A DNA stretch of 64,000 bases. It comes from Aureibaculum luteum. Its GTDB lineage: Bacteria; Bacteroidota; Bacteroidia; Flavobacteriales; Flavobacteriaceae. The notes under the pieces were generated by a model that was given only the letters and a program-made list of their open reading frames with translations, was not told the DNA's origin and made no database searches. A program made the position numbers and the translations under genes. Every line of letters starts with the position of its first letter. Position 1 is the stretch's first letter. Where the stretch lies: positions 124,001 through 188,000 of the forward strand of contig NZ_QRGD01000005.1 in the NCBI RefSeq assembly GCF_003449015.1, written 5' to 3'. Below are positions 37,846 through 56,223 of the stretch, one piece after another.

Positions 37846-37889
37846 ATGATAATTATCATTTTTTTTATAGGTTTTAACTCCTAAATTTA
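37846..37889 (+). promoter_or_regulatory. CRP/FNR-type dyad plus -7 box driving the first Usp gene
   Basis: The 14-bp perfect palindrome ATGATAATTATCAT (37846-37859) is followed after 22 bp by TAAATTTA (37882-37889), a near match to TAnnTTTG. The ATG is 25 bp further on. This places an activator dyad at about -41 from the expected start site. Confidence 0.8.
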
Positions 37890-37914
37890 CCATACAATTT
37901 TTAAAGTAGATGCC

Positions 37915-38772
37915 ATGAAAAATATACTTTACGCTACTGACTATTCAAAGTATTCTGTTACCGCGTTACAATATGCATATCGCTTAAGCACAAAAATGAA
38001 TATCCAATTAAAGGTAATTCATGTGTTTCACTATCCATCTACATTATTAAATATAGTTGGTGATACTGAACCAGACTTTGGCGTAAACTATTTTGAAAAA
38101 CACGCCTCTAAATTAGAACAATTTTGTATCGATAATTTAGGTTATGATTTAACAAATATAACTGTTGAAGCTGTTGAGAATAAATCTGTTTTAAACGGAA
38201 TTATCGATAAAGCTCAAGAATTAGATTCAACATTTGTAGTTGTTGGTACAAAAGGTAATGGGACAATTAAAGATTTTATAATGGGTAATACCACTAAAAA
38301 TTTAATAGAAAAAAGTTTGTTTCCTATACTATCAATTCCTTATCAAAAAAAAATCTCAAAAATAAAAACGATAGTATATGCTACTGCCTTTGAAGAAGAT
38401 GACATACATGCTATTTGTAAATTAACCGAAATTGCAGAACCTTTAAAATCAGAAATAAAAGTAGTACATGCTTCTTTAAAAAATGAATACCCGGGTGAAG
38501 TTCAAATGGCATGGTTTAAAGAAATGATTGCTAATAAAATAAAATATGATAAGATTAGCTTTGAAGTTATTTCTTCAGATGACGTTTTTAATTCATTACG
38601 CTTATATGCTGAAAAAAATGATGCTGATTTAATAGCGATGCTTGATCGTAAGAAAGGTGGATTTATAAAAAAATTATTAAATAAAGATACCGTATTGTTA
38701 ATGAATGATTATGGTAAATATCCACTGATTAGTTTTAATGTTAGTAATTGTCTAAAACTAAATCTTTCTTGA
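37915..38772 (+). CDS. Universal stress protein, tandem UspA domains (Usp1)
   Basis: This 285-residue cytoplasmic protein has two UspA domains. The first begins MKNILYATDYSKYS and carries the ATP-binding pattern GTKGNGTIKDFIMGN around residues 108-122. The second begins near KIKTIVYATAF and lacks a clear ATP motif. Such double-domain proteins are common in Bacteroidota and respond to stress or low oxygen. This is the first of four consecutive Usp genes and has its own dyad promoter 22 bp upstream of the -7 box. Confidence 0.9.
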   Translation: MKNILYATDYSKYSVTALQYAYRLSTKMNIQLKVIHVFHYPSTLLNIVGDTEPDFGVNYFEKHASKLEQFCIDNLGYDLTNITVEAVENKSVLNGIIDKAQELDSTFVVVGTKGNGTIKDFIMGNTTKNLIEKSLFPILSIPYQKKISKIKTIVYATAFEEDDIHAICKLTEIAEPLKSEIKVVHASLKNEYPGEVQMAWFKEMIANKIKYDKISFEVISSDDVFNSLRLYAEKNDADLIAMLDRKKGGFIKKLLNKDTVLLMNDYGKYPLISFNVSNCLKLNLS

Positions 38773-38788
38773 TTTAGAAAAAGTAAGA

Positions 38789-38832
38789 CTGATTTAGGTC
38801 ATTTTATTTAAGTTACAATTATTGTTCTTTTG
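38789..38832 (+). promoter_or_regulatory. CRP/FNR-type dyad plus -7 box driving the second Usp gene
   Basis: CTGATTTAGGTCAT (38789-38802) fits TGAYnnnnRTCA. After 22 bp comes TTCTTTTG (38825-38832), which keeps TTTG of the -7 consensus. The ATG is at 38850. Confidence 0.7.
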
Positions 38833-38849
38833 AAAAAAAATTAATCATC

Positions 38850-39695
38850 ATGAAAAATATACTTTTACCCACAGACTTTTCTGAAAATTCTAAAAATGCT
38901 ATTAATTATGCATTAGAATTATTTAATAATGAACCGTGTAAATTTTATATTTTAAATACCTATACGCCTATTATATATAATTACGATTATCAAATGAGTA
39001 GCGGTGCTTATATAGGTAATGTTGTAGATGTTATAAGAAACAATTCATTAGAAGCACTTAATGACCTTGAAAAATATGTAATTGAAAAATATAACAACCC
39101 CAAGCACGAATTTGAATTAATCTCCTCATTTAGCACACTTACCGATGAAATTGATTTACTAGTAGCTCAAAAGAATTTAGATTTAATAATTATGGGTACA
39201 AAAGGAGCTTCTGGTGTTGAAGAAGTACTTTTTGGTACAAATACCATTCATACCATAAAAAAAGTCAAATGTCCCGTTTTGGCAATACCTGATGGTTTTT
39301 TCTTTGAAAAACCAAAAGATATTCTTTTTCCTACGGACTATAAAATTGATTACTCAGCTAAGCATTTAGATATTTTAGAAACAATTAGCAGTATATACAA
39401 ATCTAAAGTGCATATACTGCACGTTTCTTCAAATAGAGATTTAAATGAGGAAGAAAACTCCCATAAAATTAAATTAGATAATTTATTAAATTCAAGAAAT
39501 AAAGAATTTTATTCCGTAAAAGATCAAGAAATTCCACAAGCAATTAATGAATTTCAGAAATCTACATATGTTCACATGTTAATGATGATTAAAAATAAAC
39601 ATACTTTTTTAGAAAACTTGTTTTTCAAGAAAATTATCAATCAAATTGGGTTTCATTTAACGGTTCCATTCTTGGTTGTTCCTTCTAATTTTTAA
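38850..39695 (+). CDS. Universal stress protein, tandem UspA domains (Usp2)
   Basis: This 281-residue protein starts with MKNILLPTDFSENSKNAI. Its first domain carries the ATP-binding pattern GTKGASGVEEVLFGTNT. The second domain (starting PKDILFPTDYKIDY) is degenerate. It is followed after 10 bp by the third Usp gene, so these two are likely one transcript from the dyad promoter at 38789. Confidence 0.9.
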   Translation: MKNILLPTDFSENSKNAINYALELFNNEPCKFYILNTYTPIIYNYDYQMSSGAYIGNVVDVIRNNSLEALNDLEKYVIEKYNNPKHEFELISSFSTLTDEIDLLVAQKNLDLIIMGTKGASGVEEVLFGTNTIHTIKKVKCPVLAIPDGFFFEKPKDILFPTDYKIDYSAKHLDILETISSIYKSKVHILHVSSNRDLNEEENSHKIKLDNLLNSRNKEFYSVKDQEIPQAINEFQKSTYVHMLMMIKNKHTFLENLFFKKIINQIGFHLTVPFLVVPSNF

Positions 39696-39705
39696 TTTAA
39701 ATAAC

Positions 39706-40536
39706 ATGAAAAATATATTAATACCCATTGACTTTTCTGAAAATTCAAAAAGTGCCGTACAATATGCATTAAAGTTATATAAAAATGAGATTTGTACTTT
39801 TTACTTTTTACATTCTACTAATTTTATTAACTCTACTTCTAGAACATACATAACACCACATTATGTTGAGGAATCACATAAAAAAGCGTTAAAAAAAATA
39901 CAAGAATTAGAATTAAAAACTAAAAGGGAAAATGCGAGTGTAAAACATGATTATAAGAACATTATAAGCAATGACAAATTACATACCGCCATTGATAAAG
40001 CCATTAAACAAAATGATATTGAGCTTGTAATAATGGGCACCAAAGGGTGTACTGCCGCTGTTGAATTCTTTGCCGGTAGTAATACCGTTGAAATAATTAA
40101 TAAAGTTAAAAATTGCCCCATTTTAGTCATTCCAGACGAATATAGTTTTGTTGCTCCAAAACAAATTGGTTTTCCAACAGATTATAACCGCAAATACACA
40201 GATAGAGAATTAGAGACACTTAAAAATATGACCAGGTTATATAATTCTGAAATAAGAATTGTACATATCAATGTCGAAAAAAGTTTAACGCTTTCTCAAA
40301 AACATAATATAGAAAGACTAGAGAACTATTTGGCCGACCAAAAATACAATTTTCATTATATCGATGACAATTCAAAAAAATCAGAAAACATAATTATGTT
40401 TATCAATGATTATAAGATAGACATGCTTGCCATGGTAAATTATGAACATGGTCCTATTGAGAATGTGCTAAAGGAACCTGTGATAAAAAAATTAGCTTTT
40501 CATCCTAGAATTCCGCTTTTAGTAATACCTGAATAA
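39706..40536 (+). CDS. Universal stress protein, tandem UspA domains (Usp3)
   Basis: I start this 276-residue protein at 39706 because MKNILIPIDFSENSKSAV aligns with its paralogues; an ATG 30 bp upstream overlaps the previous gene. The ATP-binding pattern GTKGCTAAVEFFAGSNT is in the first domain. The second domain opens PKQIGFPTDYNRKY and lacks the motif. Confidence 0.9.
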   Translation: MKNILIPIDFSENSKSAVQYALKLYKNEICTFYFLHSTNFINSTSRTYITPHYVEESHKKALKKIQELELKTKRENASVKHDYKNIISNDKLHTAIDKAIKQNDIELVIMGTKGCTAAVEFFAGSNTVEIINKVKNCPILVIPDEYSFVAPKQIGFPTDYNRKYTDRELETLKNMTRLYNSEIRIVHINVEKSLTLSQKHNIERLENYLADQKYNFHYIDDNSKKSENIIMFINDYKIDMLAMVNYEHGPIENVLKEPVIKKLAFHPRIPLLVIPE

Positions 40537-40604
40537 TATATTTAAAAACAGAGTATTATTTGTTAAAATACTGATTACAATTTGTTTAATTAAAATTAGT
40601 ACTA

Positions 40605-41447
40605 ATGAAAAATATTTTAATACCTACCGACTTTTCTGATAATGCCTGGGATGCGTTACTCTATGCCATTAGATTGTACGATGCTATTCCTGCCCATTTT
40701 TATATTTTACATACCTACCAAGCTGGTACTTCTAGAACTAGTAACCGAATGTCTAAGTATAGAAATACTCATCTTCATAGGGTATTAAAAGAAGAATCAG
40801 AAAAAGGACTTAAAAAAATTCAAAATTATTTAGATAAAAATTTATTAAATGACGATCACAAATACCAAACAATTTCTCAGGCCGGTGATTTAGTTTTTCA
40901 GATTAAACAAGTTGTTACGAATTACAATATTGATATTATTGTTATGGGCACTACTGGTGCTACTGGTGCAAAGGAGATTTTTATGGGAAGCAATGCGGTT
41001 AGCGTTATTAATCATATAGAACTTTGCCCCGTATTAACAGTGCCAAAAGATTATGAATTTACAGAATTGAAAAACATCATTTTTGCTAGTGATTTAAAAA
41101 GAAGATTCTACTCCATTGAACTTTTTTCTCTAATTGAATTGCAAGCGATTCATAAAAGTAATATCTGTTTATTGAATATAAACGAAGGTGATGATTTAGA
41201 TGAAACGCAATTTCATAATTTAAAAGATATCAAAGCTTTATTCAAGGATAGCTCCACTTCTTTTGAACAAACCGAATTAGAAGGTAAAGTTGCAAAATCA
41301 ATAATGAATTTCAGCAAAAACCACAATTCTGATTTAGTGTGCTTAGTAAATTCTGAAAAAAAATTCCTTAAAAAATTAATAGAAGAAGCTGTCATAAAAA
41401 AAGTAAGCTTTCATAGTGCTATACCTCTATTAGTAATACCCATTTAG
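40605..41447 (+). CDS. Universal stress protein, tandem UspA domains (Usp4)
   Basis: This 280-residue protein starts with MKNILIPTDFSDNAWDAL. Its ATP-binding pattern is GTTGATGAKEIFMGSNA; the second domain opens LKNIIFASDLKRRF. No dyad operator lies in the 68 bp before it, so it probably reads through from Usp3 or has another promoter. Confidence 0.9.
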   Translation: MKNILIPTDFSDNAWDALLYAIRLYDAIPAHFYILHTYQAGTSRTSNRMSKYRNTHLHRVLKEESEKGLKKIQNYLDKNLLNDDHKYQTISQAGDLVFQIKQVVTNYNIDIIVMGTTGATGAKEIFMGSNAVSVINHIELCPVLTVPKDYEFTELKNIIFASDLKRRFYSIELFSLIELQAIHKSNICLLNINEGDDLDETQFHNLKDIKALFKDSSTSFEQTELEGKVAKSIMNFSKNHNSDLVCLVNSEKKFLKKLIEEAVIKKVSFHSAIPLLVIPI

Positions 41448-41572
41448 TATTGTTTAAGGGTCTCAAAAACTAAATATAGAGCATAAACAAAACTTATAAA
41501 TCTTATTATTCTAATAGTTGCTTTTTCTGTAAAGTTAACGCATTGCTCTTAATCTATTCATTTCATATCAAA

Positions 41573-41616
41573 CTGATGAATATCATTTAGGTTATAAAAT
41601 TATAGTGTTAAATTTA
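41573..41616 (+). promoter_or_regulatory. CRP/FNR-type dyad plus -7 box driving the 41639 lipoprotein
   Basis: CTGATGAATATCAT (41573-41586) is followed after 22 bp by TAAATTTA (41609-41616), the same -7 sequence as at Usp1. The ATG follows 22 bp later. Confidence 0.78.
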
Positions 41617-41638
41617 AAGAACTAAATGTAGCACTATT

Positions 41639-42268
41639 ATGAAAAATATAATCAGTATACTACTTGGGTTTATACTTGTCAGCTGTTCTTCGGCTGAATT
41701 AGTAAACAATTGGAAAAATCCGGATATTGACTCCTTCGCTCCAGGTAAAATATTAATAATCGGAATGACTTCTAATGACGAGGCTAGACAAAAATTTGAA
41801 GAGAAATTAAAACAAAAATACCTATCAAGAGGTACTGAAGCAGTAGCGAGTTACGAGCTTTTTGAGGAATCTTTTATGAGTTTTAGACGAACTGAAGAGG
41901 ACTTAATTTCACTAGAAGACAGCCTAATAAAAGATGGATTCGACAGCGTTTTGTTAACAAAAGTTGCAGGTGTAGAAGACCGTACGGCATTTTTTAATAA
42001 ATTTGACAAAGACACAAACTATGGGTTTAAATATGATTATTACAATAATCAAGAAATATATTTTAATAGCAATTATTATGATGAATATAAAGTATATCAT
42101 GTAGAAACCTCATTGTATTGTATTTGTAAAGGCGAAGAGAGAACGCTCATTTGGAAAGGTTATATTGATATTATAGACCCTAATTCCATAAAAGAAACGG
42201 TAAAAGATTATGTTAATTTAGTAGTGTTTGTATTAGAAGAACAAAACTTAATACAAAAAAATGAATAA
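41639..42268 (+). CDS. Lipoprotein of unknown function
   Basis: This 209-residue protein has signal MKNIISILLGFILVSC (Cys16). The next residues (SAELVNNWKNPDIDSFAPGKILIIGM) resemble a widespread group of envelope lipoproteins with an N-terminal S-W-x-[DN]-P segment and a nucleoside-binding-like fold. The middle contains a Tyr/Asn-rich stretch. Membership in the dyad regulon is the best clue to its role, possibly envelope stress. Confidence 0.7.
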   Translation: MKNIISILLGFILVSCSSAELVNNWKNPDIDSFAPGKILIIGMTSNDEARQKFEEKLKQKYLSRGTEAVASYELFEESFMSFRRTEEDLISLEDSLIKDGFDSVLLTKVAGVEDRTAFFNKFDKDTNYGFKYDYYNNQEIYFNSNYYDEYKVYHVETSLYCICKGEERTLIWKGYIDIIDPNSIKETVKDYVNLVVFVLEEQNLIQKNE

Positions 42269-42360
42269 CTAGATTGAAGAAGATTGGTCTCTGTAGTTCA
42301 CCTTTGATTAATGAATTGTAATTCTACTACCAACCTTATAATTTAACACTGTGGTATCTT

Positions 42361-43347
42361 TTAATTGTCTTTATTATTCTCTTTCAGTTTCTTCTTCTCC
42401 AATTTTTTAAAATAACCTCTGAATAAAAAATTATGCTTTAACGCTTCTAAATTTTCATTCAAAAGTGTACTACCATCCTTTAAGTTCGTCATAGTACTGT
42501 CAATATTCTTAACAAAAACAGTATCATTAATCATATAATTGAGTGCTCCATTACCTGATTGTATTCCTAAAACCACATTATTGATATTACTTAACACTGA
42601 ATCTATTTTACTACTAGAATAATCAAGGTTTTGTATGATAGATTTCATTTTATTGGCTGAAATAGAATCACTCAATAAGACAGCCGCCACACTCTCATTA
42701 TAATTTACAGAATTCATAATTTTATTTAGTTTATCTATAGTTTCTGAAGCACCAATACTGGCGGATTTTAAAGTTAAAAAAGTCTCTTTTATAGTTAACG
42801 CCAAGTTTTCATCATTGATTAACATTCCCAGCGTTCCTTTTCCCTGATTAACTTCGGTGGTTATTTTTAGTAAATCTGACGTTAATAGTGCTGCATTTTC
42901 ATTGGTAGTATTTAATGTTGACATCATATCGCTCGTTGAAATTTTGCTAAATGATTTAATCGTATCTCCAGACATTAATGCTTCAGAGGTTTCTTTTACA
43001 GGAACAATGTTAATAATCATACTACCCACCAAACCGTCAGAACTTATAGCTGCTAATGCGTTCTTTTTTAAATGTTGTAAAATTTTATCTTCAACTATCA
43101 TGTCTACACAAATTGTAGTATCATTAATCATTTCGATATTTTTTACGGTACCAACATTAATACCAGAATATCTAACATTATTACCTAATTGTAGTCCGTT
43201 AACGTTGTTAAACACAGCACTTATTCTAAAGGTTTTACCAAAAATATTTTGTTTATTCCCTATAAAATAAAGTGCAAAAATTAATAATAGTGTACTCGCA
43301 ATTATAAATAAACCCAATTTAAATTTCTGTGTTTTCGTCTGTTGCAT
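42361..43347 (-). CDS. MCE/MlaD-family substrate-binding protein
   Basis: This 328-residue protein has one N-terminal transmembrane helix (LGLFIIASTLLLIFALYFIG) and an MCE domain (FRISAVFNNVNGLQLGNNVRYSGINVGTV). A long helical region with Asn/Ser-rich repeats reaches the C-terminus. It is the periplasmic lipid-binding part of a Mla-type transporter. It ends the operon mlaE-mlaF-mlaD-like, 7 bp after the ATPase gene. Confidence 0.9.
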   Translation of the reverse strand: MQQTKTQKFKLGLFIIASTLLLIFALYFIGNKQNIFGKTFRISAVFNNVNGLQLGNNVRYSGINVGTVKNIEMINDTTICVDMIVEDKILQHLKKNALAAISSDGLVGSMIINIVPVKETSEALMSGDTIKSFSKISTSDMMSTLNTTNENAALLTSDLLKITTEVNQGKGTLGMLINDENLALTIKETFLTLKSASIGASETIDKLNKIMNSVNYNESVAAVLLSDSISANKMKSIIQNLDYSSSKIDSVLSNINNVVLGIQSGNGALNYMINDTVFVKNIDSTMTNLKDGSTLLNENLEALKHNFLFRGYFKKLEKKKLKENNKDN

Positions 43348-43354
43348 AACTTAA

Positions 43355-44095
43355 TTATTTAAAAAATGCTTTAATATTTTTATCAGTTGATAATGCCAAT
43401 TCTGCAAAACTACCTTCGGCATAATTTACACCATCAATTAGCAAAATCATTCTGTTCGCAATTACTCTAGCACAATCAACATCGTGCGTTATTATTAACG
43501 ATGAAGCTCCATATTTTTCTTGAATATCTCTCATCAATTGAATAATTTCTTTTGACGTTATCGGATCTAATCCCGTGGTTGGTTCATCATAAATTATTAT
43601 TTTAGGTTTTAAAATAATGGCTCTCGCTAAAGCAACTCTACGTTTCATACCTCCTGAGAGTTCTTCCGGCATTAAATCCATGACATGAGCCAAACCTACA
43701 CTTTCTAATGCTTCTAATACTAATGCATCTTTTTGCTTAAATTTTTCTTTATTTTTACGGAGTGGAAACTCCAAATTTTCACGTACCGTCATAGAATCAT
43801 AGAGAGCACTACCTTGAAAAAGAAACCCTATTTGTGATCTTAAGTCGTTTAATTGATTCAGTGTGAGTTTAGACAGATCATGACCCATAATTTCAATAAG
43901 ACCACTATCATGCACTAACAAGCCCATTAAACATTTAATCATTACAGACTTACCAGAACCTGATTTTCCCATAATAACTAAACTTTCGCCTTTGTATAAC
44001 TCCAAAGAAAATCCATTAAGCACATGATTATCTCCAAAACTTTTTTTCAAGTCTACTATTTTTAAAACGGGTTCTTTGTTGTTTGTTTTTTCCAT
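43355..44095 (-). CDS. Mla-type ABC transporter ATPase (MlaF-like)
   Basis: This 246-residue ATPase has Walker A GKSGSGKS, signature LSGGMKRRVALARA, Walker B IIIYDEPTTGLDP and switch His in ITHDVDCA. SGGMKRR is typical of the Mla/Ttg2A group. The gene starts 2 bp after the permease stop. Confidence 0.92.
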   Translation of the reverse strand: MEKTNNKEPVLKIVDLKKSFGDNHVLNGFSLELYKGESLVIMGKSGSGKSVMIKCLMGLLVHDSGLIEIMGHDLSKLTLNQLNDLRSQIGFLFQGSALYDSMTVRENLEFPLRKNKEKFKQKDALVLEALESVGLAHVMDLMPEELSGGMKRRVALARAIILKPKIIIYDEPTTGLDPITSKEIIQLMRDIQEKYGASSLIITHDVDCARVIANRMILLIDGVNYAEGSFAELALSTDKNIKAFFK

Positions 44096-44097
44096 AT

Positions 44098-44883: not shown

Positions 44884-44890
44884 ATCAATA

Positions 44891-44934
44891 CAAATTTACC
44901 ACTGATATTTATGTAATAAAATGATTTAGATCAT
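44891..44934 (-). promoter_or_regulatory. CRP/FNR-type dyad plus -7 box driving the Mla operon
   Basis: The minus strand reads ATGATCTAAATCAT at 44934-44921, then after 22 bp TAAATTTG at 44898-44891, a perfect TAnnTTTG. The mlaE ATG is 8 bp further on. Confidence 0.85.
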
Positions 44935-46232: not shown

Positions 46233-46248
46233 CCTTTAATATTTTTAC

Positions 46249-46292
46249 TAAAAATAATAAGAAATTAAATGTTTTAAAATGACCAATGTCAG
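46249..46292 (-). promoter_or_regulatory. CRP/FNR-type dyad plus -7 box driving the FMN protein
   Basis: ATGACCAATGTCAG (46279-46292) fits TGAYnnnnRTCA; on the minus strand, 22 bp later, TTATTTTA (46256-46249) keeps the TTT core of the -7 box. The ATG is at 46232. Confidence 0.65.
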
Positions 46293-47251: not shown

Positions 47252-47295
47252 TAAAGTTAATAAATAGTCAAGTCCTTAAAAATGATACATATCAT
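47252..47295 (-). promoter_or_regulatory. CRP/FNR-type dyad plus -7 box driving mscS
   Basis: ATGATACATATCAT (47282-47295) is followed on the minus strand after 22 bp by TAACTTTA (47259-47252). The plus side, toward the histidine kinase, has no -7 box at the same distance. Confidence 0.78.
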
Positions 47296-47395: not shown

Positions 47396-49276
47396 ATGTT
47401 TCAACAAAATCAAGATATATTTAGCATCCTTTCTGAAGCTATTTCTGAATGCATTATCATTATAGATAATGATCAAAAAATTGTATCAACAAATTCGTCT
47501 ACCAATAAAGTTTTTGGTTATCCATCTACTGAATTAATAGGCAAATCTCTAGAAAAGCTTATTCCAAAAAAATATCATAAAATTCAAAAGGTTCTCTTCA
47601 AAAAATTTATAAAAAAAGGTGAAAAAAGACAAATTTCAGATAGTATAGAGCTTTATGGATTACAGAAAAATGGAGCAGTTTTCCCTATACAAATTGGTTT
47701 AAACCCTTTTACGGTTTATGGTAAAACCTATATCATGGTTTTATTGATTGATATTACTGAAAGAAAAGAAAATGAAAGAAATTTACTCCTAAAAAGCGAA
47801 GCACTGCAATCCGCTGCAAACGGTATTGTAATAACGGATGCTTCACAGGATGATAACCCTATCATTTATTGCAATTCGGCTTTTATTAGACTCACTGGAT
47901 ATTCAGAATCAGAAATCTTAAATAAAAATTGCCGGTTTCTACAAACTGATGATAGAGATCAAGAAAACTTAAAACAAATTCGTATCGCTATAAAAGAAGG
48001 AAAAAGTTGCAAGGTCATACTGCGTAATTATAAAAAAGATGGCACCTTATTTTGGAATGATCTATCTGTAACTCCAATAAAAAGCAATAGAGGAATTGTT
48101 ACCCATTTTATTGGAATCCAAAATGATATTACGCAACGAATGTATGCCGAGCAAGAACTTAAGCACTGGGCTTCCATTTTTGATGAATCTTTAAATGAAA
48201 TATTTATTTTCGATAAAGGATCATTAAAATTTTTAAATGTTAACCGAGGGGCACAAAAAAATATAGGTTATACATTAGAAGAGCTAAAAGAATTGACGCC
48301 TCTAGACCTTAAACCGGAAATTACCGAAAGTGATTTTCGAACAATGATAGCTCCATTACTTAATAAGGAAAAAGAAAAAATTGAATTTGAAGCCGTGCAT
48401 CAAAGAAAAGATGGCTCTACCTACCCTATTGAGGTACACTTACAAATTTCGTCATCTGAAGATCAAGAATTACTGGTTGCTATAATTTTAGATATTACAG
48501 AACGAAAAAACTATACTGAAAAGTTAGAAAATACGGTCGAAAAAAGAACAGCACAATTAAAAATAGCCCTGACTAAAGAAAAAGAGTTAAACGAGCTTAA
48601 AACAAAATTTCTATCTTTAGTATCGCATGAATTTAAAACACCTTTAAGTGGCATTTTAACATCAACTATTTTACTAGAAAAATATAAACTCACTGCACAA
48701 CAAGAAAAAAGAGATAAACACTTAAATATAATTACAAGCAAAGTACATTACCTCAACAATATTCTCAATGATTTTTTATCAATTGAACGTTTAGAATTAG
48801 GAAAAGTAACCTATAAATTTACTGATTTTAATCTGAGTAAAGTCGTAAACGAGGTGGTTTATAATGCAAATATGCTATTAAAAGGTGGACAAAGAATTAA
48901 TATATCTCAAAATAGTGATGAATTTAACTTACATCAAGATGAGCGGATTTTAGAATTAATTTTGTCAAATTTAATTTATAATGCCATAAAATATTCACCT
49001 GAAAATACAGACATTAATCTTGAAGTTTCAGAATGTGAAAAGAATTTAGTTTTAAAGGTTGTTGATTATGGTATAGGAATACCAATAAATGATCAAAAAC
49101 ACATATTTAATCGTTACTTTAGAGCAGAAAATGTATTGAATAATCATGGTACAGGCATAGGCCTAAACATTATAAAAGCACATTTGGAAAATTTAGGTGG
49201 AACAATAAACTTCAAAAGTGAAGAAAATAACGGGTCTACATTTACAGTTGCACTACCTAAGATAATTGAAAAATGA
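47396..49276 (+). CDS. PAS-LOV-PAS soluble sensor histidine kinase (putative blue-light/flavin sensor)
   Basis: This 626-residue kinase has no membrane helix. PAS1 spans about 10-125. PAS2 at about 140-247 is a LOV domain with NCRFLQ (photoactive Cys179, Gln183), NYKKDG (Asn211), FWND (Asn221) and GIQND (Gln242). Relative to the Cys, the Asn residues lie at +32 and +42, exactly as in YtvA (Cys62, Asn94, Asn104). PAS3 spans 255-372, then a coiled coil (372-400), phospho-acceptor His411 (SLVSHEFKTPL) and the ATPase with N-box (NLIYNAIKYS), DYGIGIP and GTGIGL. It overlaps the response regulator by 4 bp. Confidence 0.9.
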   Translation: MFQQNQDIFSILSEAISECIIIIDNDQKIVSTNSSTNKVFGYPSTELIGKSLEKLIPKKYHKIQKVLFKKFIKKGEKRQISDSIELYGLQKNGAVFPIQIGLNPFTVYGKTYIMVLLIDITERKENERNLLLKSEALQSAANGIVITDASQDDNPIIYCNSAFIRLTGYSESEILNKNCRFLQTDDRDQENLKQIRIAIKEGKSCKVILRNYKKDGTLFWNDLSVTPIKSNRGIVTHFIGIQNDITQRMYAEQELKHWASIFDESLNEIFIFDKGSLKFLNVNRGAQKNIGYTLEELKELTPLDLKPEITESDFRTMIAPLLNKEKEKIEFEAVHQRKDGSTYPIEVHLQISSSEDQELLVAIILDITERKNYTEKLENTVEKRTAQLKIALTKEKELNELKTKFLSLVSHEFKTPLSGILTSTILLEKYKLTAQQEKRDKHLNIITSKVHYLNNILNDFLSIERLELGKVTYKFTDFNLSKVVNEVVYNANMLLKGGQRINISQNSDEFNLHQDERILELILSNLIYNAIKYSPENTDINLEVSECEKNLVLKVVDYGIGIPINDQKHIFNRYFRAENVLNNHGTGIGLNIIKAHLENLGGTINFKSEENNGSTFTVALPKIIEK

Positions 49277-50328
49277 AAAAAATTTTATTAATAGAAGATG
49301 ACATTGTTGTCAGAGAAAATACAGCTGAGCTGTTAGAATTAGCTAATTATGAAGTTTTTACAGCGGCCGATGGTAAAATGGGTATTACAAAAGCTAACAC
49401 GGAATTACCTGATGTAATTATTTGTGATATAATGATGCCCGAAATAAATGGTTATGAAGTATTAAATGTGCTTTCTAAAACAATTGCAACACAACATATT
49501 CCATTTATCTTTTTATCCGCTAAAACTGAATATAGCGATATTCGAAAAGGAATGGATATGGGTGCTGACGATTATTTAACCAAACCTTTTAATGAAGCTG
49601 AACTTATTAGTGCCATAGAAAGTCGAATTGCCAAAGTAGCACTTCTAAATGAGAATTCAGAATTGAAAAGCATTATACAATCATTCAATAGTGATGATAA
49701 TCTAAAAACAATTGATCAGCTTAAAAACTATTTTTCTGATAATGCTGAGGAAGTTACTTATAACCTTGATGAAACTATTTATAGAGAAGGAGATAATTCA
49801 AATTATATTTATTTAATATATAAAGGCGTTGTAAAAACATCAAAAACTGATGAACAAGGCAAAGAATTAATTACCGCATTACATAAAGGAGACGATTTTT
49901 TTGGGCTAACCTCATTAACACTTAATAGACCTTATAAAGAATCTGCAATAGCACTTGAAAAAACGGAAATTTTCAGATTGGTAAAAAATGATTTTAAAGA
50001 TCTTTTATTAAAAAATCATGCCTTAACATTAGAGTTGCTTGATTATTCAACAGAAAATGTAACCGAAATTAAGGATCAATTATTACAAATGGCTTACAGT
50101 TCGGTTAGAAAAAAAACTGCAAATACTATTTTGCAATTTGCTGAAAAAATTAAAAAACATCCAAAGGATGGCATTCGGATATCAAGAAGTGATCTTGCTA
50201 GTGTAGCTGGTATTGCCACCGAGACTTTTATAAGAACATTAACACGTTTAAAAAAGGATGGTATTATTGATATTGAAGGAAGAAATATAAAGGTTATTGA
50301 TATTGACTTGTTAAAACAAGTTTTTTGA
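49273..50328 (+). CDS. CheY-CRP fusion response regulator
   Basis: This 351-residue protein has a receiver domain at 3-122 with phospho-acceptor Asp52 (VIICDIMMP) and Lys in LTKPF. A cyclic-nucleotide-type beta-barrel spans about 155-265 and a CRP-family helix-turn-helix about 295-340. In the recognition helix, Glu317 and Arg321 (ATETFIR) match CRP Glu181/Arg185 and FNR Glu209/Arg213, which read the TGA half-site. The barrel lacks the Gly-Glu and Arg-Ser residues that bind cAMP, and the only cysteine is Cys51, so no FNR-like cluster is possible. Control must come from phosphorylation by the upstream kinase. Confidence 0.92.
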   Translation: MKKILLIEDDIVVRENTAELLELANYEVFTAADGKMGITKANTELPDVIICDIMMPEINGYEVLNVLSKTIATQHIPFIFLSAKTEYSDIRKGMDMGADDYLTKPFNEAELISAIESRIAKVALLNENSELKSIIQSFNSDDNLKTIDQLKNYFSDNAEEVTYNLDETIYREGDNSNYIYLIYKGVVKTSKTDEQGKELITALHKGDDFFGLTSLTLNRPYKESAIALEKTEIFRLVKNDFKDLLLKNHALTLELLDYSTENVTEIKDQLLQMAYSSVRKKTANTILQFAEKIKKHPKDGIRISRSDLASVAGIATETFIRTLTRLKKDGIIDIEGRNIKVIDIDLLKQVF

Positions 50329-50331
50329 AGA

Positions 50332-50375
50332 TTGATATATATCATTGTGTAAAATCTATATCACGTCTAACTTTG
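50332..50375 (+). promoter_or_regulatory. CRP/FNR-type dyad plus -7 box driving Usp5
   Basis: TTGATATATATCAT (50332-50345), four bases after the response-regulator stop, is followed after 22 bp by TAACTTTG (50368-50375), a perfect -7 box. The TTGAT half is identical to the FNR consensus. Confidence 0.85.
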
Positions 50376-50401
50376 ATGTAAATTATAGATCGAATAGAAT
50401 G

Positions 50402-51241
50402 ATGACTAATATTTTAATCCCCACTGACTTTTCGGAAAATTCATGGAATGCGATAGCATATTCCATAAAATATTTTGAAAAATCAACATGTAATTTTTAT
50501 ATATTACATGTTACACCTATTATCAATTATGCAAGTGGTGAAACTCCACCACTCCCCTTCAGTGGCTCCATAGAAAAAGAACTATTAAAGCAATCGAAAT
50601 CAGATTTACAAGACCTATTAAATAGGATTAAGAAAATAGATTTGAATCCCAATCATAATTTTATAACAATACCTAGTTACGATTATTTTATTGATTCGAT
50701 AAGGGGGCAAATTGACAAAAAAAAGATTGACCTAGTTGTTATGGCAACCAAAGGTGCCTCTGGTATTAAAAAAATAGTTATTGGTAGTAATACTGGCGAT
50801 TTAATTACAAAAGTAAAAATACCTGTAATGGTTATACCAGAAAAAGCAATATTTAAAGTCCCTAAAGAAATAGCTTTTCCAACTGACTATAACATATTTT
50901 ATCATACAAAAATAATTAGTGATATTTTAGAATTTTCAAAAAAACATGATACCATTATAAGAGTAGTCCATGTTGCTAAAAAAAATGAGGAATTAACACA
51001 ATTTCAATTAGAAAATAAAGAATATTTAGATGAAGTTTTAAGTACTATTAACCATAGTTTTCATAGAATAAGTAATAAAAAAATTGAAGCAGGAATAGAA
51101 TGTTTTGTGGAAAGCAGAGATATTGATATGATATTTATGGTCGCAAAAAACTTAACTCTTTTTCAGCAAGTTATGTTTAAGCCAACTGTAGAAGAAATAA
51201 GTTATCGTACCAAGATTCCCTTTATCGTATTACATGAATAA
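50402..51241 (+). CDS. Universal stress protein, tandem UspA domains (Usp5)
   Basis: I start this 279-residue protein at ATG 50402 (MTNILIPTDFSENSWNAI), as in its paralogues; ATG 50399 is equally possible and farther upstream starts would lie inside the promoter. The ATP-binding pattern is ATKGASGIKKIVIGSNT, with Ala for the usual first Gly. The second domain opens PKEIAFPTDYNIFY. A small membrane protein gene follows 15 bp later. Confidence 0.9.
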   Translation: MTNILIPTDFSENSWNAIAYSIKYFEKSTCNFYILHVTPIINYASGETPPLPFSGSIEKELLKQSKSDLQDLLNRIKKIDLNPNHNFITIPSYDYFIDSIRGQIDKKKIDLVVMATKGASGIKKIVIGSNTGDLITKVKIPVMVIPEKAIFKVPKEIAFPTDYNIFYHTKIISDILEFSKKHDTIIRVVHVAKKNEELTQFQLENKEYLDEVLSTINHSFHRISNKKIEAGIECFVESRDIDMIFMVAKNLTLFQQVMFKPTVEEISYRTKIPFIVLHE

Positions 51242-51256
51242 AAAACATAAATAATT

Positions 51257-51646
51257 ATGGAAAATATATCTATTTTTTTAGCAAAATTTTGGGGATGGTA
51301 TTTAATTATTTTCTTTTTAATATTAAGTCTAAACCCTAAAAGAATCAAACAAATCTTTGAAGATTTAAAAGATCAAAAATTTCTAATTATTACGGCTTTT
51401 ATAGCCATTATAATAGGCTTACTAAATATTTTATTTCACAATATTTGGGAAGATAGTTGGACTATTGTAATTACATTTATTGGATATATATCACTTCTTA
51501 TTGGTTTGTCTCTATTTGTTTTTCCTGACAGAACCATCAATTGGATAAACATTATAAATATTAAATTTTTACAGATATTATATATGCTATTGTTTTTAGT
51601 AGGTGTTTTCCTTTTAAATATGGCGTATGGTATAGTACCATTTTAA
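51257..51646 (+). CDS. Small membrane protein of unknown function
   Basis: This 129-residue protein has four predicted helices (about 10-25, 43-60, 72-92 and 104-122) and short loops. No family motif is recognised. Position 15 bp after Usp5 indicates co-expression from the same dyad promoter. Confidence 0.7.
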   Translation: MENISIFLAKFWGWYLIIFFLILSLNPKRIKQIFEDLKDQKFLIITAFIAIIIGLLNILFHNIWEDSWTIVITFIGYISLLIGLSLFVFPDRTINWINIINIKFLQILYMLLFLVGVFLLNMAYGIVPF

Positions 51647-51690
51647 AAATTATTTTACAAAAATAGTATATGAACTCTATACTATATTAT

Positions 51691-51720
51691 AAAACAGGTA
51701 AGTTAATACTCACCTGTTTT
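51691..51720. terminator. Bidirectional terminator after the Usp5 operon
   Basis: AAAACAGGT (51691-51699) pairs with ACCTGTTTT (51712-51720) around a 12-base loop. It can also serve the convergent WG-repeat gene. Confidence 0.75.
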
Positions 51721-51731
51721 ATAATTTAACA

Positions 51732-52346
51732 CTACCATGAATAAAGATTCCATTTTTCATTTTTGTTTTTTACTGCAATTAACCTAGAAGCAATAATTTT
51801 AGAATGAAAACTTGGAGGTAAACTGTTAGATTTCATAGCATCATTATAGCCTCTTCCATTATCTAAATACTTAATTATTTTACCTGAATCATCAATAACG
51901 TACTCTTCTAAATTGTAGGAAACAACATTTTTACTTAAGATATTGTTTTTACCTATAGTCGTAGTGTCTATTTTCATAATTATAGCAAAGCCTTCTTTAA
52001 AATTGGTAACATTTAAAAATTGAGGTTCTATAATCGTATTCCCTTTATTGTCCATATAGCCATAATAATAAGTATTGTCAATTAGCTTTTTAATAATACA
52101 TTTACCTTCTTTAAATATAGGGTACTTTATCGATGGATCTTCACTATTTATTTCAGTGGCTACGACACCATCTCTAAAATCAATTTCCTTTTCACCTTTT
52201 TTATTTATAAAGGCCCATTGCTCATTTTTTTGCACAGCTGCCAAATCCTCATTAAAAGGAGAAACCAAATCAATATCCTTTAAATTTTGAGAAAACAAAA
52301 TCTGATTGACGGAAAAGCACAGCACTAAAACTATTAAATTTTTCAT
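51732..52346 (-). CDS. Exported WG-repeat protein
   Basis: This 204-residue protein has a signal peptide (MKNLIVLVLCFSVNQILFSQ). WG-like repeats include AAVQKNEQWAFINKKGEKEI and YYGYMDNKGNTIIEPQF, then a less regular C-terminal part. WG-repeat proteins have no known enzymatic role. Its promoter has one of the clearest dyad plus -7 box pairs. Confidence 0.75.
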   Translation of the reverse strand: MKNLIVLVLCFSVNQILFSQNLKDIDLVSPFNEDLAAVQKNEQWAFINKKGEKEIDFRDGVVATEINSEDPSIKYPIFKEGKCIIKKLIDNTYYYGYMDNKGNTIIEPQFLNVTNFKEGFAIIMKIDTTTIGKNNILSKNVVSYNLEEYVIDDSGKIIKYLDNGRGYNDAMKSNSLPPSFHSKIIASRLIAVKNKNEKWNLYSW

Positions 52347-52370
52347 GATTGTATATATTTATAATTCAAT

Positions 52371-52444
52371 CAAAATTACTAACGACGGGCTTTTTACGAA
52401 ATGATCAGGATCATTTTTTATGAAACCCAATTATAATAGTTTTA
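52371..52444. promoter_or_regulatory. CRP/FNR-type dyad with -7 boxes on both sides
   Basis: ATGATCAGGATCAT (52401-52414) is followed on the minus strand after 22 bp by TAATTTTG (52378-52371), aimed at the WG-repeat gene. On the plus strand at the same distance there is TAGTTTTA (52437-52444), which may be a second promoter toward the gene at 52704. Confidence 0.75.
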
Positions 52445-52483
52445 ACAAAACAAAAATTCACCTCTTGATATATAATTATGTAA

Positions 52484-52527
52484 CTGATATATATCATTTC
52501 AAATTAGAATCAATATAAATACCTTAG
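52484..52527 (+). promoter_or_regulatory. CRP/FNR-type dyad plus -7-like box upstream of the 52704 gene
   Basis: CTGATATATATCAT (52484-52497) is followed after 22 bp by TACCTTAG (52520-52527), one mismatch from TAnnTTTG. The next start codon is 176 bp away, so a long leader or a separate small RNA is implied. Confidence 0.65.
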
Positions 52528-52703
52528 TGTTTATAATAGGAAAGCTTATAATTATATCAATAATTAAATTTGATTTATTGCTGGAAGAAGAGGCTAAACC
52601 ATCATCAAAAAAGGTGATAGAAGTATTCTAATAATTCTTTAAAAAGGGGCAAGCAAATACTTCTATTTCGCTCTAATTTTTATAACGCTATAAATATCTT
52701 AAA
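52528..52703 (+). other. Long leader with an 11-bp inverted repeat
   Basis: ATAGAAGTATT (52617-52627) is repeated inverted at 52656-52666 with a 28-base loop. Two short frames (LLEEEAKPSSKKVIEVF, then FFKKGQANTSISL in another frame) lie on either side of a stop. They may be the relic of a gene, or chance. No full small ORF with a good start is visible. Confidence 0.4.
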
Positions 52704-53141
52704 ATGGAAACTAAAATTAAAAAAGATTGGTTGGGTAGAGTTAAAAGCATTGAAGAATTGCATGATGACTCAAAACTTTGGATGTCTGAAGTAAGTTTTA
52801 TTAATGATGAGTTACATTTTTTTAATGATTTGTTAAGTACTTATTATATTGACCTTATAGATTCCGGTTTATCTGAAGAAATCAAAAAAATAATAAAGAA
52901 AATAACTCAAGAAAAAGAATCATATAATTCATTTATGAATCTGATTCAATATCAGGAAAAATTATTATCTAAATTAATATACACAGGCAGTGTTACCAGC
53001 AATCCAAATTATTTGAAAATGCATCAAGATTTAGAATATAAAGTTGATGCCTACATTAAAAATTCTAAATTATTAAAAAAACAAATATTTAGCATTGTAG
53101 AAGCTCAAATGAGAAAGAAAGAGCAAAAAAAATTACTATGA
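52704..53141 (+). CDS. Helical protein of unknown function
   Basis: This 145-residue soluble protein is almost entirely helical and charged. Segments such as EEIKKIIKKITQEKESYNSF and KVDAYIKNSKLLKKQIFSIV probably form coiled coils. It contains no cysteine and no recognised motif. Dyad promoter control and the neighbouring Usp genes suggest a stress role, but this is only context. Confidence 0.65.
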   Translation: METKIKKDWLGRVKSIEELHDDSKLWMSEVSFINDELHFFNDLLSTYYIDLIDSGLSEEIKKIIKKITQEKESYNSFMNLIQYQEKLLSKLIYTGSVTSNPNYLKMHQDLEYKVDAYIKNSKLLKKQIFSIVEAQMRKKEQKKLL

Positions 53142-53181
53142 AAATTACTATGAGAAGGACTTATTACTATGAGAAGGACTT
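53132..53181 (+). repeat. 19-bp tandem repeat, about 2.6 copies
   Basis: The unit ATTACTATGAGAAGGACTT occurs at 53144-53162 and 53163-53181, preceded by a partial copy at 53132-53143 that overlaps the stop codon of the 52704 gene. Confidence 0.85.
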
Positions 53182-53217
53182 AAAAGATAGTATCGGTTAT
53201 AACCTTTACTATCTTTT
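53182..53217 (+). terminator. Terminator after the 52704 gene
   Basis: AAAAGATAGTA (53182-53192) pairs with TACTATCTTTT (53207-53217) around a 14-base loop. Confidence 0.7.
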
Positions 53218-53286
53218 AATGCTAATACTTACTTCATAAATCTTTTTCTTGTAAAAATTTCCTTTAAAAAAGCAATTAAAAAAAAC

Positions 53287-54111
53287 TTACAAAAACAATA
53301 TAGGTATTTTACTGGCATACGTTATCTCTGTCGCACTAGCCTTAGAAAAGATCCTTTTAAAAAAAGATTCAACATGTATAATTTTGGCAATTAACTGTAT
53401 TTCTTTTGTTGCTGTAAAATGTTCTACAGCATTTTCAATAGACATATTTTGATCCGAATAAAAATTTAGTGCTGTGTCTTTAAAAAATGAATTTAACGCC
53501 TCTTTTTGAAGGTTATATTTATCTTGTTCATTCTGATTAACAATAGTTAAAATATTCAGATCTGAATGAAATTTTGATATAATACCAACTAATGATTTTA
53601 CGATATTTTTATTCATACTTATTTCCGTATCATTGATAAATAAAACTTGCGATGGTTTACAGTACTTGTAATTGTTAGGAATAACCAAAATAGGTAAATC
53701 TACTTTTTCAATAACCTGAATTGTATTAGATCCGAAAACAGTTTCTTTTATACTTGAAGCTCCATTTGTACCCATAACAATCATATCAACATGTTCAATT
53801 TCTACCAATTGTTTTATCGCACTTACAAAGCTATCATAATCACAAACTCCTTCAAAAGTATAGGCTTCATTAGCATACTCTTTCTTTAAATCATTTACTA
53901 AAATCTCTAATGTTTTTTTAGGGTTTTTTATGACGGAATCATAAATAGATTTTTTGGGAGATGCAATTAAATCACTTGTAATATATTTGGAAACTTTCTG
54001 CACATTTAGCACATAAAACTCAATGGTGTCTCCACTAAAAAACTGCATCGCATATGCTATAGCATTGCTAGCATTATTTGAAAAATCGGTTAATAAAAGT
54101 ATCCGTTTCAT
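53287..54111 (-). CDS. Universal stress protein, tandem UspA domains (Usp6)
   Basis: I start this 274-residue protein at ATG 54111 (MKRILLLTDFSNNASNAI); an upstream ATG at 54174 would fall inside the operator. The ATP-binding pattern is GTNGASSIKETVFGSNT. The second domain (PSQVLFINDTEIS) is degenerate. It is the only Usp gene of the island on the minus strand and shares its operator with hemN. Confidence 0.9.
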   Translation of the reverse strand: MKRILLLTDFSNNASNAIAYAMQFFSGDTIEFYVLNVQKVSKYITSDLIASPKKSIYDSVIKNPKKTLEILVNDLKKEYANEAYTFEGVCDYDSFVSAIKQLVEIEHVDMIVMGTNGASSIKETVFGSNTIQVIEKVDLPILVIPNNYKYCKPSQVLFINDTEISMNKNIVKSLVGIISKFHSDLNILTIVNQNEQDKYNLQKEALNSFFKDTALNFYSDQNMSIENAVEHFTATKEIQLIAKIIHVESFFKRIFSKASATEITYASKIPILFL

Positions 54112-54130
54112 AATTATATTTTTTCTCTTA

Positions 54131-54204
54131 TAAAAATACAAATTACAACGTATTGTAAATATGACATTTATCATTGTATCTCCATCATAACAACATTAAT
54201 TTTG
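54131..54204. promoter_or_regulatory. Shared CRP/FNR-type dyad between Usp6 and hemN
   Basis: ATGACATTTATCAT (54161-54174) has TAATTTTG (54197-54204) 22 bp away on the plus side, a perfect -7 box for hemN. On the minus side it has TATTTTTA (54138-54131) at the same distance, for Usp6. A single dimer could activate both. Confidence 0.85.
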
Positions 54205-54228
54205 ACAACAAGAAAATAAGTAATTCCT

Positions 54229-55596
54229 ATGCCAAATTCAACATTAATTCAAAAGTATAATGTACCTGGTCCAAGATATACTAGTTACCCTACAGTTCCT
54301 TATTGGAATGAAGATAGCATAGATGAAAATAGCTGGAAGCAATCCATTAAAAAGTCTTTTGATGAAAGTAATTCTTCAAAGGGAATTAGTTTATATCTAC
54401 ACCTTCCTTTTTGTGAAAGTCTGTGCACTTTTTGTGCTTGTCATAAATACATTACGAAGCGACATGAATTAGAAACACCATATATTGAAACGTTATTAGC
54501 AGAATGGCAACTGTACTTGCAACAATTTGATAAAAAACCGTTGTTAAAAGAGTTACATTTAGGTGGTGGGACTCCTACTTTTTTTGAAGTGGAAAATTTA
54601 GAACTGATGATAAAAACGATTCTAAAAACCGTTGATTTACATAGAGATTTTGAATTTAGTTTTGAAGGCCATCCTAACAACACTACCAAAGAACATTTAC
54701 AGGCATTATATAATTTAGGCTTTACTCGAGTTAGTTATGGTGTACAAGATTATTCAGAAAAAATTCAAAAAGCTATTAATAGAAAGCAGTCCTTTGAAGA
54801 TGTAAAAAATGTAACCCAATGGGCTAGAGATATTGGCTATACTTCTATTAGCCACGACCTTATTTTTGGATTACCATTTCAGACCATTAACGATATTATA
54901 GATACCATAAAAAAAACGAAAGAATTAAAACCTGAACGTATTTCGTTTTACAGTTATGCTCATGTACCATGGATTAAAGGTGTGGGCCAAAGAGGCTTTA
55001 AAGATTCAGATATACCCAATGGTGATGCCAAACGAAAACTATATGAAATGGGTAAACATATGTTACTAAATCTAGGATATATTGAAACCGGTATGGATCA
55101 TTTCGCATTACCAACAGATTCCCTCTCTAGAGCTTTTAAAGACGCTAATATGCACAGGAATTTTATGGGATACACTACAAATCCAACACAATTAATGATA
55201 GGGTTGGGCATGTCTGCCATTAGCGATTCTTGGTATAGTTTTTCACAAAATGAGAAAACGTTAAAAGCATATCAAGATCAAATTGAAAAAGGAGTACTTC
55301 CTCTTTTAAAAGGTCATTTATTAACTGAAGAAGATTTAATAATCAGAAAACACATACTAAACATTATGTGTCATTTTAAAACTTCTTGGAAAAATGACAA
55401 TATGAAATTTAAGGAGCTCCCCGAAACATTAGGTCGTTTAAAGGAATTAGAAAAAGATGGCTTAGTTGTAATTTTAGATGATGAACTCATTATTCCTGAA
55501 AATGCAAGGGCATTTGTAAGAAATATATGTATGGCATTTGATTTACGTATGGTTCGTAACAAACCAAATACCAAATTATTTTCATTGACAGTATGA
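54229..55596 (+). CDS. hemN: Oxygen-independent coproporphyrinogen III oxidase
   Basis: This 455-residue radical-SAM enzyme oxidises coproporphyrinogen III to protoporphyrinogen IX without oxygen, allowing haem synthesis in anoxic cells. The cluster motif CESLCTFCAC places cysteines at 62, 66, 69 and 71, the same numbers as E. coli HemN. LHLGGGTPTFF and RVSYGVQDY follow. The C-terminal HemN domain is complete. Haem would be needed for the cytochromes of denitrification. Confidence 0.95.
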   Translation: MPNSTLIQKYNVPGPRYTSYPTVPYWNEDSIDENSWKQSIKKSFDESNSSKGISLYLHLPFCESLCTFCACHKYITKRHELETPYIETLLAEWQLYLQQFDKKPLLKELHLGGGTPTFFEVENLELMIKTILKTVDLHRDFEFSFEGHPNNTTKEHLQALYNLGFTRVSYGVQDYSEKIQKAINRKQSFEDVKNVTQWARDIGYTSISHDLIFGLPFQTINDIIDTIKKTKELKPERISFYSYAHVPWIKGVGQRGFKDSDIPNGDAKRKLYEMGKHMLLNLGYIETGMDHFALPTDSLSRAFKDANMHRNFMGYTTNPTQLMIGLGMSAISDSWYSFSQNEKTLKAYQDQIEKGVLPLLKGHLLTEEDLIIRKHILNIMCHFKTSWKNDNMKFKELPETLGRLKELEKDGLVVILDDELIIPENARAFVRNICMAFDLRMVRNKPNTKLFSLTV

Positions 55597-55697
55597 TATT
55601 AAGATGCAAAAATGTAGACCAAGAATAAGGTAAAAATGGTAGCTTATAAATTAATTTTAAGGATTATAAACTAAAGTTAAACCAAGCGGAAAGAAGA

Positions 55698-56126
55698 TTA
55701 AAAAAGGTGTGTATGTCCTTCTTTTATTTCCTTAGTGAAACTTGCAATTGTTTTATTTGTTAGCTCCCCTACTAATTTATTTCTTAAGGGTGCTACTAGA
55801 TGATGAATTGGACAGGGATTTTCACTATCACAAACAGGTAAACCTAAAGAACATCCTTGAAATTTTTCTAATCCGTCTATGGCGGCTACGATAGATATCA
55901 TTGTATTTAGTCTATCAGCATCCGTAAGATAAAAACCTCCGTTCCTACCTTTTCTTGAAGAAATTATATTTCTTTTGGTAAGTTCTTGCAAGGTTTTAGC
56001 TAAAAAAGGAGCTGGTATATCAATTATTTCAGCAATTGATTTTGGATTAAATTTTTTTTCGTCATCAGAATTTAATGATAAAAACAGTACTGCTCTAATG
56101 GCGTAAGTACTAGATTTTGAAAGCAT
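55698..56126 (-). CDS. Rrf2-family regulator with a three-cysteine cluster motif
   Basis: This 142-residue regulator has an N-terminal winged helix (MLSKSSTYAIRAVLFLSLN, then FNPKSIAEIIDIPAPFLAKTLQEL and GRNGGFYL). A Cys-x6-Cys-x5-Cys motif (GCSLGLPVCDSENPC) lies near residue 95. NsrR and IscR hold an iron-sulfur cluster with a similar C-x5-C-x5-C or C-x5-C-x7 array. NO or iron-sulfur sensing is thus likely. It diverges from the fasciclin-cytochrome-nosZ transcript across a shared dyad. Confidence 0.88.
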   Translation of the reverse strand: MLSKSSTYAIRAVLFLSLNSDDEKKFNPKSIAEIIDIPAPFLAKTLQELTKRNIISSRKGRNGGFYLTDADRLNTMISIVAAIDGLEKFQGCSLGLPVCDSENPCPIHHLVAPLRNKLVGELTNKTIASFTKEIKEGHTHLF

Positions 56127-56149
56127 ATTTTATAATTTTAACAAGACAA

Positions 56150-56223
56150 CAAAGTAAAAAGATAATAATATCTTTTTATATGACAAATGTCATATTTTCA
56201 TTTAAGCACTACTTATATATTTG
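56150..56223. promoter_or_regulatory. Shared CRP/FNR-type dyad between rrf2 and the nosZ transcript
   Basis: The palindrome ATGACAAATGTCAT (56180-56193) has TATATTTG (56216-56223) 22 bp away on the plus side, a perfect -7 box. On the minus side it has TTACTTTG (56157-56150), one mismatch, at the same distance toward the Rrf2 gene. Confidence 0.85.

Follow-up and report, generated by a model that had tools for sequence, protein, structure and literature searches.

A family-wide promoter rule of the class II CRP type in Flavobacteriaceae, with a two-component CRP fusion as its likely local regulator

Activators of the CRP/FNR superfamily have their textbook class II position at -41.5, and in DosRST, the mycobacterial dormancy regulon, the regulator DosR belongs to the LuxR/NarL type. 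The promoters of Bacteroidota are unlike those of Escherichia coli, and to our knowledge few activator-promoter geometries have been worked out for this phylum. Start-site mapping in Flavobacterium psychrophilum, described in PMC9723704, puts the sigma-A box TAnnTTTG at -12 to -5; a MalR-type carbon control is predicted for a Flavobacteriales CRP homologue in passages of PMC8510549, and sections of PMC4844311 describe LOV proteins that act on stress responses in other organisms. The subject of this work is a 64,000-nucleotide stretch (30.5% G+C) of the Aureibaculum luteum genome (5.10 Mb, 48 contigs), positions 124001-188000 of contig C40 (NZ_QRGD01000005.1), referred to below as the window. 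It carries an island of short palindromes (dyads) at a constant distance from promoter boxes and, within that island, the gene for a response regulator in which a receiver (REC) domain is joined to a CRP-type protein (REC-CRP).

A previous analysis of the same DNA from its letters alone (the sequence-only reading) had described the dyads and boxes. The present work confirms that description and widens it to a promoter rule of class II CRP type that applies across the family and whose local regulator is probably a two-component CRP fusion; the regulator inside the island, beside a LOV kinase, the class II position, the presence of at least two regulators, and a second island had been left out. 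No REC-CRP regulator and no such geometry were found for Bacteroidota in the literature covered (titles and the starts of abstracts, with few subscription journals, so that absence from print is not implied), and a term search of the main text of PMC9723704 returned neither "crp" nor "fnr."

Dyads and boxes at one spacing

The data bear out the proposed regulon of CRP/FNR type and its single, constant spacing in this genome, in 80 relatives, and throughout the family. All 11 dyads reported earlier are present in the window. The dyad is counted here as its 12-bp core, TGAYNNNNRTCA, the previous coordinates having included one flanking base before the core, and a gap of 23 from this core equals a gap of 22 from the 14-mer used before. 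At this spacing, a strict TAnnTTT[AG] box is found on 11 of the 22 dyad sides and a box with one mismatch on three more promoter-facing sides (38790+, 52485+, and 56181-); a fifteenth side, 38790-, also comes within one mismatch and points towards a gene end. Perfect TAnnTTTG boxes number five (44922-, 50333+, 52402-, 54162+, and 56181+), one fewer than had been counted. At 60 other gaps, the same 22 sides yield a mean of 0.1 and a maximum of 2 strict boxes, which agrees with the earlier judgment that the spacing is not due to chance.

The whole-genome scan that had been suggested as a check favors the pair: TGAYNNNNRTCA-N{15,30}-TANNTTTR has 81 matches, compared to 24 for the reversed pattern, with 53 of the 81 at gap 23 and a total of 28 at the remaining 15 gap values. 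The relatives are represented by 80 REC-CRP loci from named genomes (1.56 Mb), a nonrandom sample made up of the 80 top-ranking stretches among 533 confirmed ones. These loci contain 338 sites at gap 23, whereas 60 other gaps average 3.4 sites apiece and seven control dyads give 0 to 2 gap-23 sites; at least one site is present in 79 of the 80 loci. An ATG-initiated open reading frame (ORF) begins within 300 nucleotides after 317 of the 338 sites, at a median of 24 nucleotides from the box. Of the 550 dyads that these loci contain, 9 are flanked by strict boxes on both sides; in the window, this is true of two, 52402 and 54162. Across 149 genomes of the family, from 148 genera, there are 2168 matches to the exact pattern and 80 to its reversed form. 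The pattern was first seen by eye in DNA of low G+C content, as would be expected of an artifact of AT-rich intergenic regions. However, chance in such DNA is rejected by the gap-23 excess in the genome, the 80 loci, and the 149 genomes, which leaves this explanation with virtually no credence. With the box occupying -12 to -5, a 23-bp gap would make the dyad core span -47 to -36, which centers the operator on the class II position, -41.5.

The genes predicted to follow these promoters (Table 1) appear, as the sequence-only reading had held, to make up a coherent stress/anaerobic set that includes Usp, HemN, and the Nos operon. Its count of five Usp loci was loose: four Usp genes follow a dyad, one of them (38790+) with only a one-mismatch box, and two additional Usp genes lie downstream of the Usp gene that follows the second dyad (38790). 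The longest ORFs of Usp5 and Usp6 begin within a dyad or on its border (long-form segments 50345-50398 and 54112-54174). Their real starts are probably those listed in Table 1, because these fit the box spacing and because the Pfam Usp match begins downstream of the long-form start, at residues 19 and 22, respectively, of the long forms. The genes at 56248..63694 could form a single operon.

Table 1. Predicted operators, boxes, targets, and regulators (window coordinates unless a contig is named)
Feature	Position	Box, position (strand)	Predicted target or content
Dyad TGATAATTATCA	37847..37858	TAAATTTA, 37882-37889 (+)	Usp1 (37915)
Dyad TGATTTAGGTCA	38790..38801	TTCTTTTG, one mismatch, 38825-38832 (+)	Usp2 (38850), then Usp3 and Usp4 downstream
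Dyad TGATGAATATCA	41574..41585	TAAATTTA, 41609-41616 (+)	209-residue protein without Pfam family (41639)
Dyad TGATTTAGATCA	44922..44933	TAAATTTG, 44891-44898 (-)	MlaE/ABC/MlaD-like genes (44883 downwards)
Dyad TGACCAATGTCA	46280..46291	TATTTTTA, 46249-46256 (-)	Pyridoxamine-oxidase-like flavin mononucleotide (FMN) protein (46232 downwards)
Dyad TGATACATATCA	47283..47294	TAACTTTA, 47252-47259 (-)	MscS-like channel
Dyad TGATATATATCA	50333..50344	TAACTTTG, 50368-50375 (+)	Usp5, start codon probably 50399, not 50345
Two-sided dyad TGATCAGGATCA	52402..52413	TAATTTTG, 52371-52378 (-)	WG-repeat protein
Two-sided dyad TGATCAGGATCA, other side		TAGTTTTA, 52437-52444 (+)	259 nucleotides before next ORF (52704)
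Dyad TGATATATATCA	52485..52496	TACCTTAG, one mismatch, 52520-52527 (+)	Before 145-residue protein (52704)
Two-sided dyad TGACATTTATCA	54162..54173	TAATTTTG, 54197-54204 (+)	HemN (54229)
Two-sided dyad TGACATTTATCA, other side		TATTTTTA, 54131-54138 (-)	Usp6, start probably 54111
Dyad TGACAAATGTCA	56181..56192	TATATTTG, 56216-56223 (+)	Fasciclin, cytochrome c, and nos genes
Dyad TGACAAATGTCA, other side		TTACTTTG, one mismatch, 56150-56157 (-)	Rrf2-type regulator
Predicted same-direction targets	56248..63694 (+)		Fasciclin protein, cytochrome c, Sec-type NosZ, 203-residue protein without family, NosL, cupin, NosD, ABC ATPase, ABC-2-like protein (under Pfam cutoff)
Sensor histidine kinase	47396..49276 (+)		PAS - LOV - PAS - HisKA - HATPase
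REC-CRP response regulator	49273..50328 (+)		Receiver, cNMP-binding-type domain, and Crp helix-turn-helix in one protein
FNR-like protein	C40:230379-231062
Second island	C12:141866-178507 (L038-L040)		13 gap-23 promoters around second kinase/REC-CRP pair

In the relatives, Usp genes are the commonest predicted targets, preceded by 132 sites in 74 loci, followed by a conserved protein without a Pfam family (138 residues in the representative), found in 33 of the 80 loci (L085-L164). Other recurrent targets are FixS of cbb3-oxidase maturation and a ribosome-hibernation-type S30AE protein (16 loci each, both labels resting on one representative), the WG protein (9 loci), and MlaE (7 loci). Site density is highest within the first kilobase past the REC-CRP midpoint (71 sites, or 893 per Mb), and the most constant target is the one immediately following REC-CRP. 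Site clusters are weak around the REC-CRP genes of other families, where 12 loci, L173-L184, each of 20 kb, have 6 sites in all. Elsewhere in the window, the ORF at 35313-37598 joins a DUF2853 N terminus to several S1 RNA-binding domains.

The REC-CRP regulator and its partner kinase

The REC-CRP gene overlaps the upstream kinase gene by four bases, and its product, 94% identical to the Aureibaculum flavum counterpart (L085), matches PF00072 (3.4e-28), PF00027 (5.4e-19), and PF13545 (2.6e-12). The beta roll typical of cyclic nucleotide monophosphate (cNMP)-binding domains and the Crp helix-turn-helix place this protein in the CRP/FNR superfamily; the phospho-acceptor D52 and K104, both invariant in 42 aligned sequences, mark it as a response regulator. 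The AlphaFold model (predicted local distance difference test, 81.5; predicted template modeling score, 0.56) shows the receiver, the cNMP-binding-type domain, and the helix-turn-helix, and gives modest confidence in the domain packing. The top PDB matches in Foldseek are CRP, GlxR, NtcA, and also FixK2 (E of about 1e-15 to 1e-13), with template modeling scores of just 0.2-0.3 on the query, as the arrangement of the domains differs or is uncertain.

The cAMP cassette motif, of the G-E-L..R-S-A type, defines CRP proper but not the superfamily. No canonical cNMP phosphate cassette is present in REC-CRP, which has FFGLTSLTLNRPYKESA there instead, and cAMP control of this protein was rejected for that reason. 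The FNR cluster cysteines are likewise missing from REC-CRP: its only Cys, residue 51, is in the receiver, and the protein therefore has no iron-sulfur (Fe-S) oxygen sensor. The single Cys and the missing cassette would be consistent with control by phosphorylation. The recognition helices of the window REC-CRP (TETFIR), a second REC-CRP on contig C12 (TETAIR), and the FNR-like protein (TESAIR) are alike and of the E..R type. The recognition helices of two further Crp proteins encoded in this genome, C40:60722 and C46:151623, are unlike these, and for that reason both proteins were rejected as the main regulator.

A kinase gene lies directly upstream of REC-CRP in 77 of the 80 loci. In the window kinase, the LOV domain (approximately residues 136-257; 47801-48166) has LOV domains as its top PDB matches (4.5e-37) and contains the photoactive Cys in the motif NCRFLQ, along with the flavin-contact stretches RNYKKDGTLFWN (RNYKKDG..FWN) and FIGIQ, so that by its residues it is predicted to be a LOV photoreceptor, with blue light or the flavin redox state as a candidate input. 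The LOV motif is found in 10 of 78 partner kinases and is lacking in the C12 kinase. On a quick REC-CRP tree, the LOV label requires 6 to 7 changes (gains or losses), at least four of which are forced by well-supported branches, and the domain looks like a swappable add-on. A Gln conserved in LOV domains has a signaling role; it is replaced by Leu in three of the ten LOV-containing relatives (L130, L136, and L163).

Two regulators and two islands

In the 149 genomes, REC-CRP was called at E <= 1e-40 and the FNR-like regulator at E <= 1e-55. The mean number of sites per genome is 2.6 with neither regulator (n = 30), 11.0 with the FNR-like protein only (n = 53), 16.5 with REC-CRP only (n = 30), and 28.1 with both (n = 36), while the reversed-pattern control stays at 0.43-0.70 in all four groups. 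The contributions of the two regulators look additive, and each therefore appears to maintain its own sites. Sites also cluster around the regulator genes. In this genome, 13 of the 53 sites are no more than 25 kb from the window REC-CRP, and 11 are as close to the C12 REC-CRP (0.52 expected for each). The corresponding counts are 6 of 15 (G321) and 3 of 20 (G432) around REC-CRP in REC-only genomes and 4 of 10 (G352), 2 of 12 (G337), and 4 of 12 (G365) around the FNR-like gene in FNR-only genomes (0.13-0.24 expected for each). Spacing, conservation, clustering in islands, and the association of site number with the regulators are thus directly supported by sequence statistics.

The C12 REC-CRP has its own kinase, and its predicted targets, stress genes among them, include two ferritin-like genes, BON-domain genes, an aldehyde dehydrogenase, and YtxH. 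The C12 operators tend to TGACCTAGGTCA, with C4 or G7 in 12 of 13, versus 4 of 11 in the window (Fisher p 0.008). C4 or G7 is found in 47 of the 338 sites of the window-type loci and in 12 of 18 sites near C12-type genes of other genomes (L165-L168; p 1e-6 versus window-type loci), though in just 2 of 7 for the C12-type loci L169-L172. The predicted operator preference is TGATWWWWATCAT for the window REC-CRP and TGACCTAGGTCA for the C12 REC-CRP. In FNR-only genomes (64 listed of 72 sites in five genomes), the inner bases are all A/T in 57 of 64 sites, and C4 or G7 occurs in 3 of 64; the G311 part of this sample has 8 of 11 and 2 of 11, respectively.

An oxygen-responsive FNR-like protein could, in principle, control the island alone, with REC-CRP binding elsewhere or merely modulating. 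This alternative draws on the FNR-only genomes, which have the same promoter design without REC-CRP, on the placement of FNR-like genes among sites of the shared spelling (G352, G337, and G365), and on the targets HemN, pyruvate:ferredoxin oxidoreductase, and cbb3 FixS, which suit oxygen control. However, the 30 genomes with REC-CRP and no FNR-like orthologue have a mean of 16.5 sites, the sites of G321 and G432 gather near REC-CRP, and the most constant target directly follows the REC-CRP gene; control by the FNR-like protein alone is accordingly considered unlikely.

The L001 protein of this genome has the Fnr model as its best match, at 87.8 bits, far under the cutoff of 228. The FNR-like gene lies about 2 kb or less from REC-CRP in G354, G364, G403, G413, and G423, a placing that would suit shared control. 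G271, from a different family within the phylum, yields 39 dyad/box pairs at gaps 20-26, compared to 3 in the control, and no full-length REC-CRP match (best E 2.3e-23); perhaps another CRP-family regulon of the same geometry operates there.

Proposed mechanism and comparison with known systems

The dyads are probably class II CRP/FNR operators, with REC-CRP, phosphorylated by the adjoining kinase, as the main local activator and the FNR-like protein sharing the operators. We infer binding, activation, phosphotransfer, and signal as follows. A CRP/FNR-family dimer would be centered 41.5 bp before the start, in contact with RNA polymerase recognizing the Bacteroidota -7 box. The kinase encoded just upstream would, from what is known of the family, phosphorylate REC-CRP at Asp52, and REC-CRP, most likely the main activator of the island, would then switch on the Usp genes above all, plus HemN, Nos, Mla, MscS, and others, presumably under low oxygen or stress. 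The FNR-like protein probably acts on the same operators, so that two signals may converge, and in this genus light or flavin redox could be an input. A bolder form of this proposal is tentative and rather less likely to hold: the LOV kinase, through blue light or flavin redox, would drive a REC-CRP acting on -41.5 operators that an oxygen-responsive FNR also uses, light and oxygen converging on the Usp, heme, and N2O (nitrous oxide)-respiration promoters, and Flavobacteriaceae would repeatedly have built REC-CRP islands with an own spelling per paralogue and swapped sensor domains.

Several observations weigh against activation by REC-CRP at shared operators. In the 80 loci, themselves nonrandom as the best of 533 stretches, 221 of the 550 dyads near REC-CRP have no strict gap-23 box on either side; among the 220 of these that were testable, 97 have a box within one mismatch at gap 23 (13.3 expected). 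The kinase and REC-CRP genes of the window are not preceded by a box at gap 23, including from dyad 47283 towards the kinase, and autoregulation is therefore not supported. The LOV motif is lacking in 68 of 78 partner kinases. Three genomes have many sites yet no detected regulator, namely G341 (29 sites; completeness 82%), G436 (16; 73%), and G427 (10; 99%), and the three rank tests on site number (p 1e-9 to 2e-9) are overstated, with kinship and genome size uncorrected across the 149 genomes. This genome has both regulators, and the spelling in FNR-only genomes appears so close to the window type that single sites are not assignable to FNR or REC-CRP.

The dyads without strict boxes could also suggest that the palindromes serve mainly as repressor sites or belong to an unrelated regulator with a TGAY-N4-RTCA dyad, as palindromes of this type also serve other families. 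Such an explanation is very improbable: the single spacing at -41.5 fits class II activation, and site number is linked to two CRP-family regulators with E..R recognition helices.

The rule of a dyad, 23 bp, and TAnnTTT[AG] picks out 2168 candidate promoters in 149 genomes of a large environmental family, points to their likely regulators, and corrects start codons; N2O reductase and dormancy-type genes are predicted to fall under a two-component CRP protein with possible light input. DosRST similarly places Usp-rich low-oxygen survival genes near the regulator under two-component control; that likeness would be one of design, and the present system, with its CRP-type output domain, is not a member. 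Like LovK/LovR of Caulobacter, LOV-HK of Brucella, and YtvA (compared here with sections of PMC4844311), the window system has a canonical LOV domain, a kinase joined to it, and predicted stress-gene outputs, whereas downstream of this LOV histidine kinase stands a CRP-family DNA-binding response regulator, and LOV is confined to the minority of partner kinases noted above. With FNR, FnrL, and FixK it shares the TGAY-N4-RTCA half-sites, the E..R recognition helix, and low-oxygen targets, REC-CRP differing in having a receiver and a partner kinase instead of an Fe-S oxygen sensor. Finally, the dyad type, the likely center at -41.5, and the one fixed spacing to the box are those of class II CRP/FNR promoters in general, but the box is the Bacteroidota TAnnTTTG, not the -10 TATAAT, the likely regulator is fused to a receiver, and the operators are packed in islands round the regulator gene.

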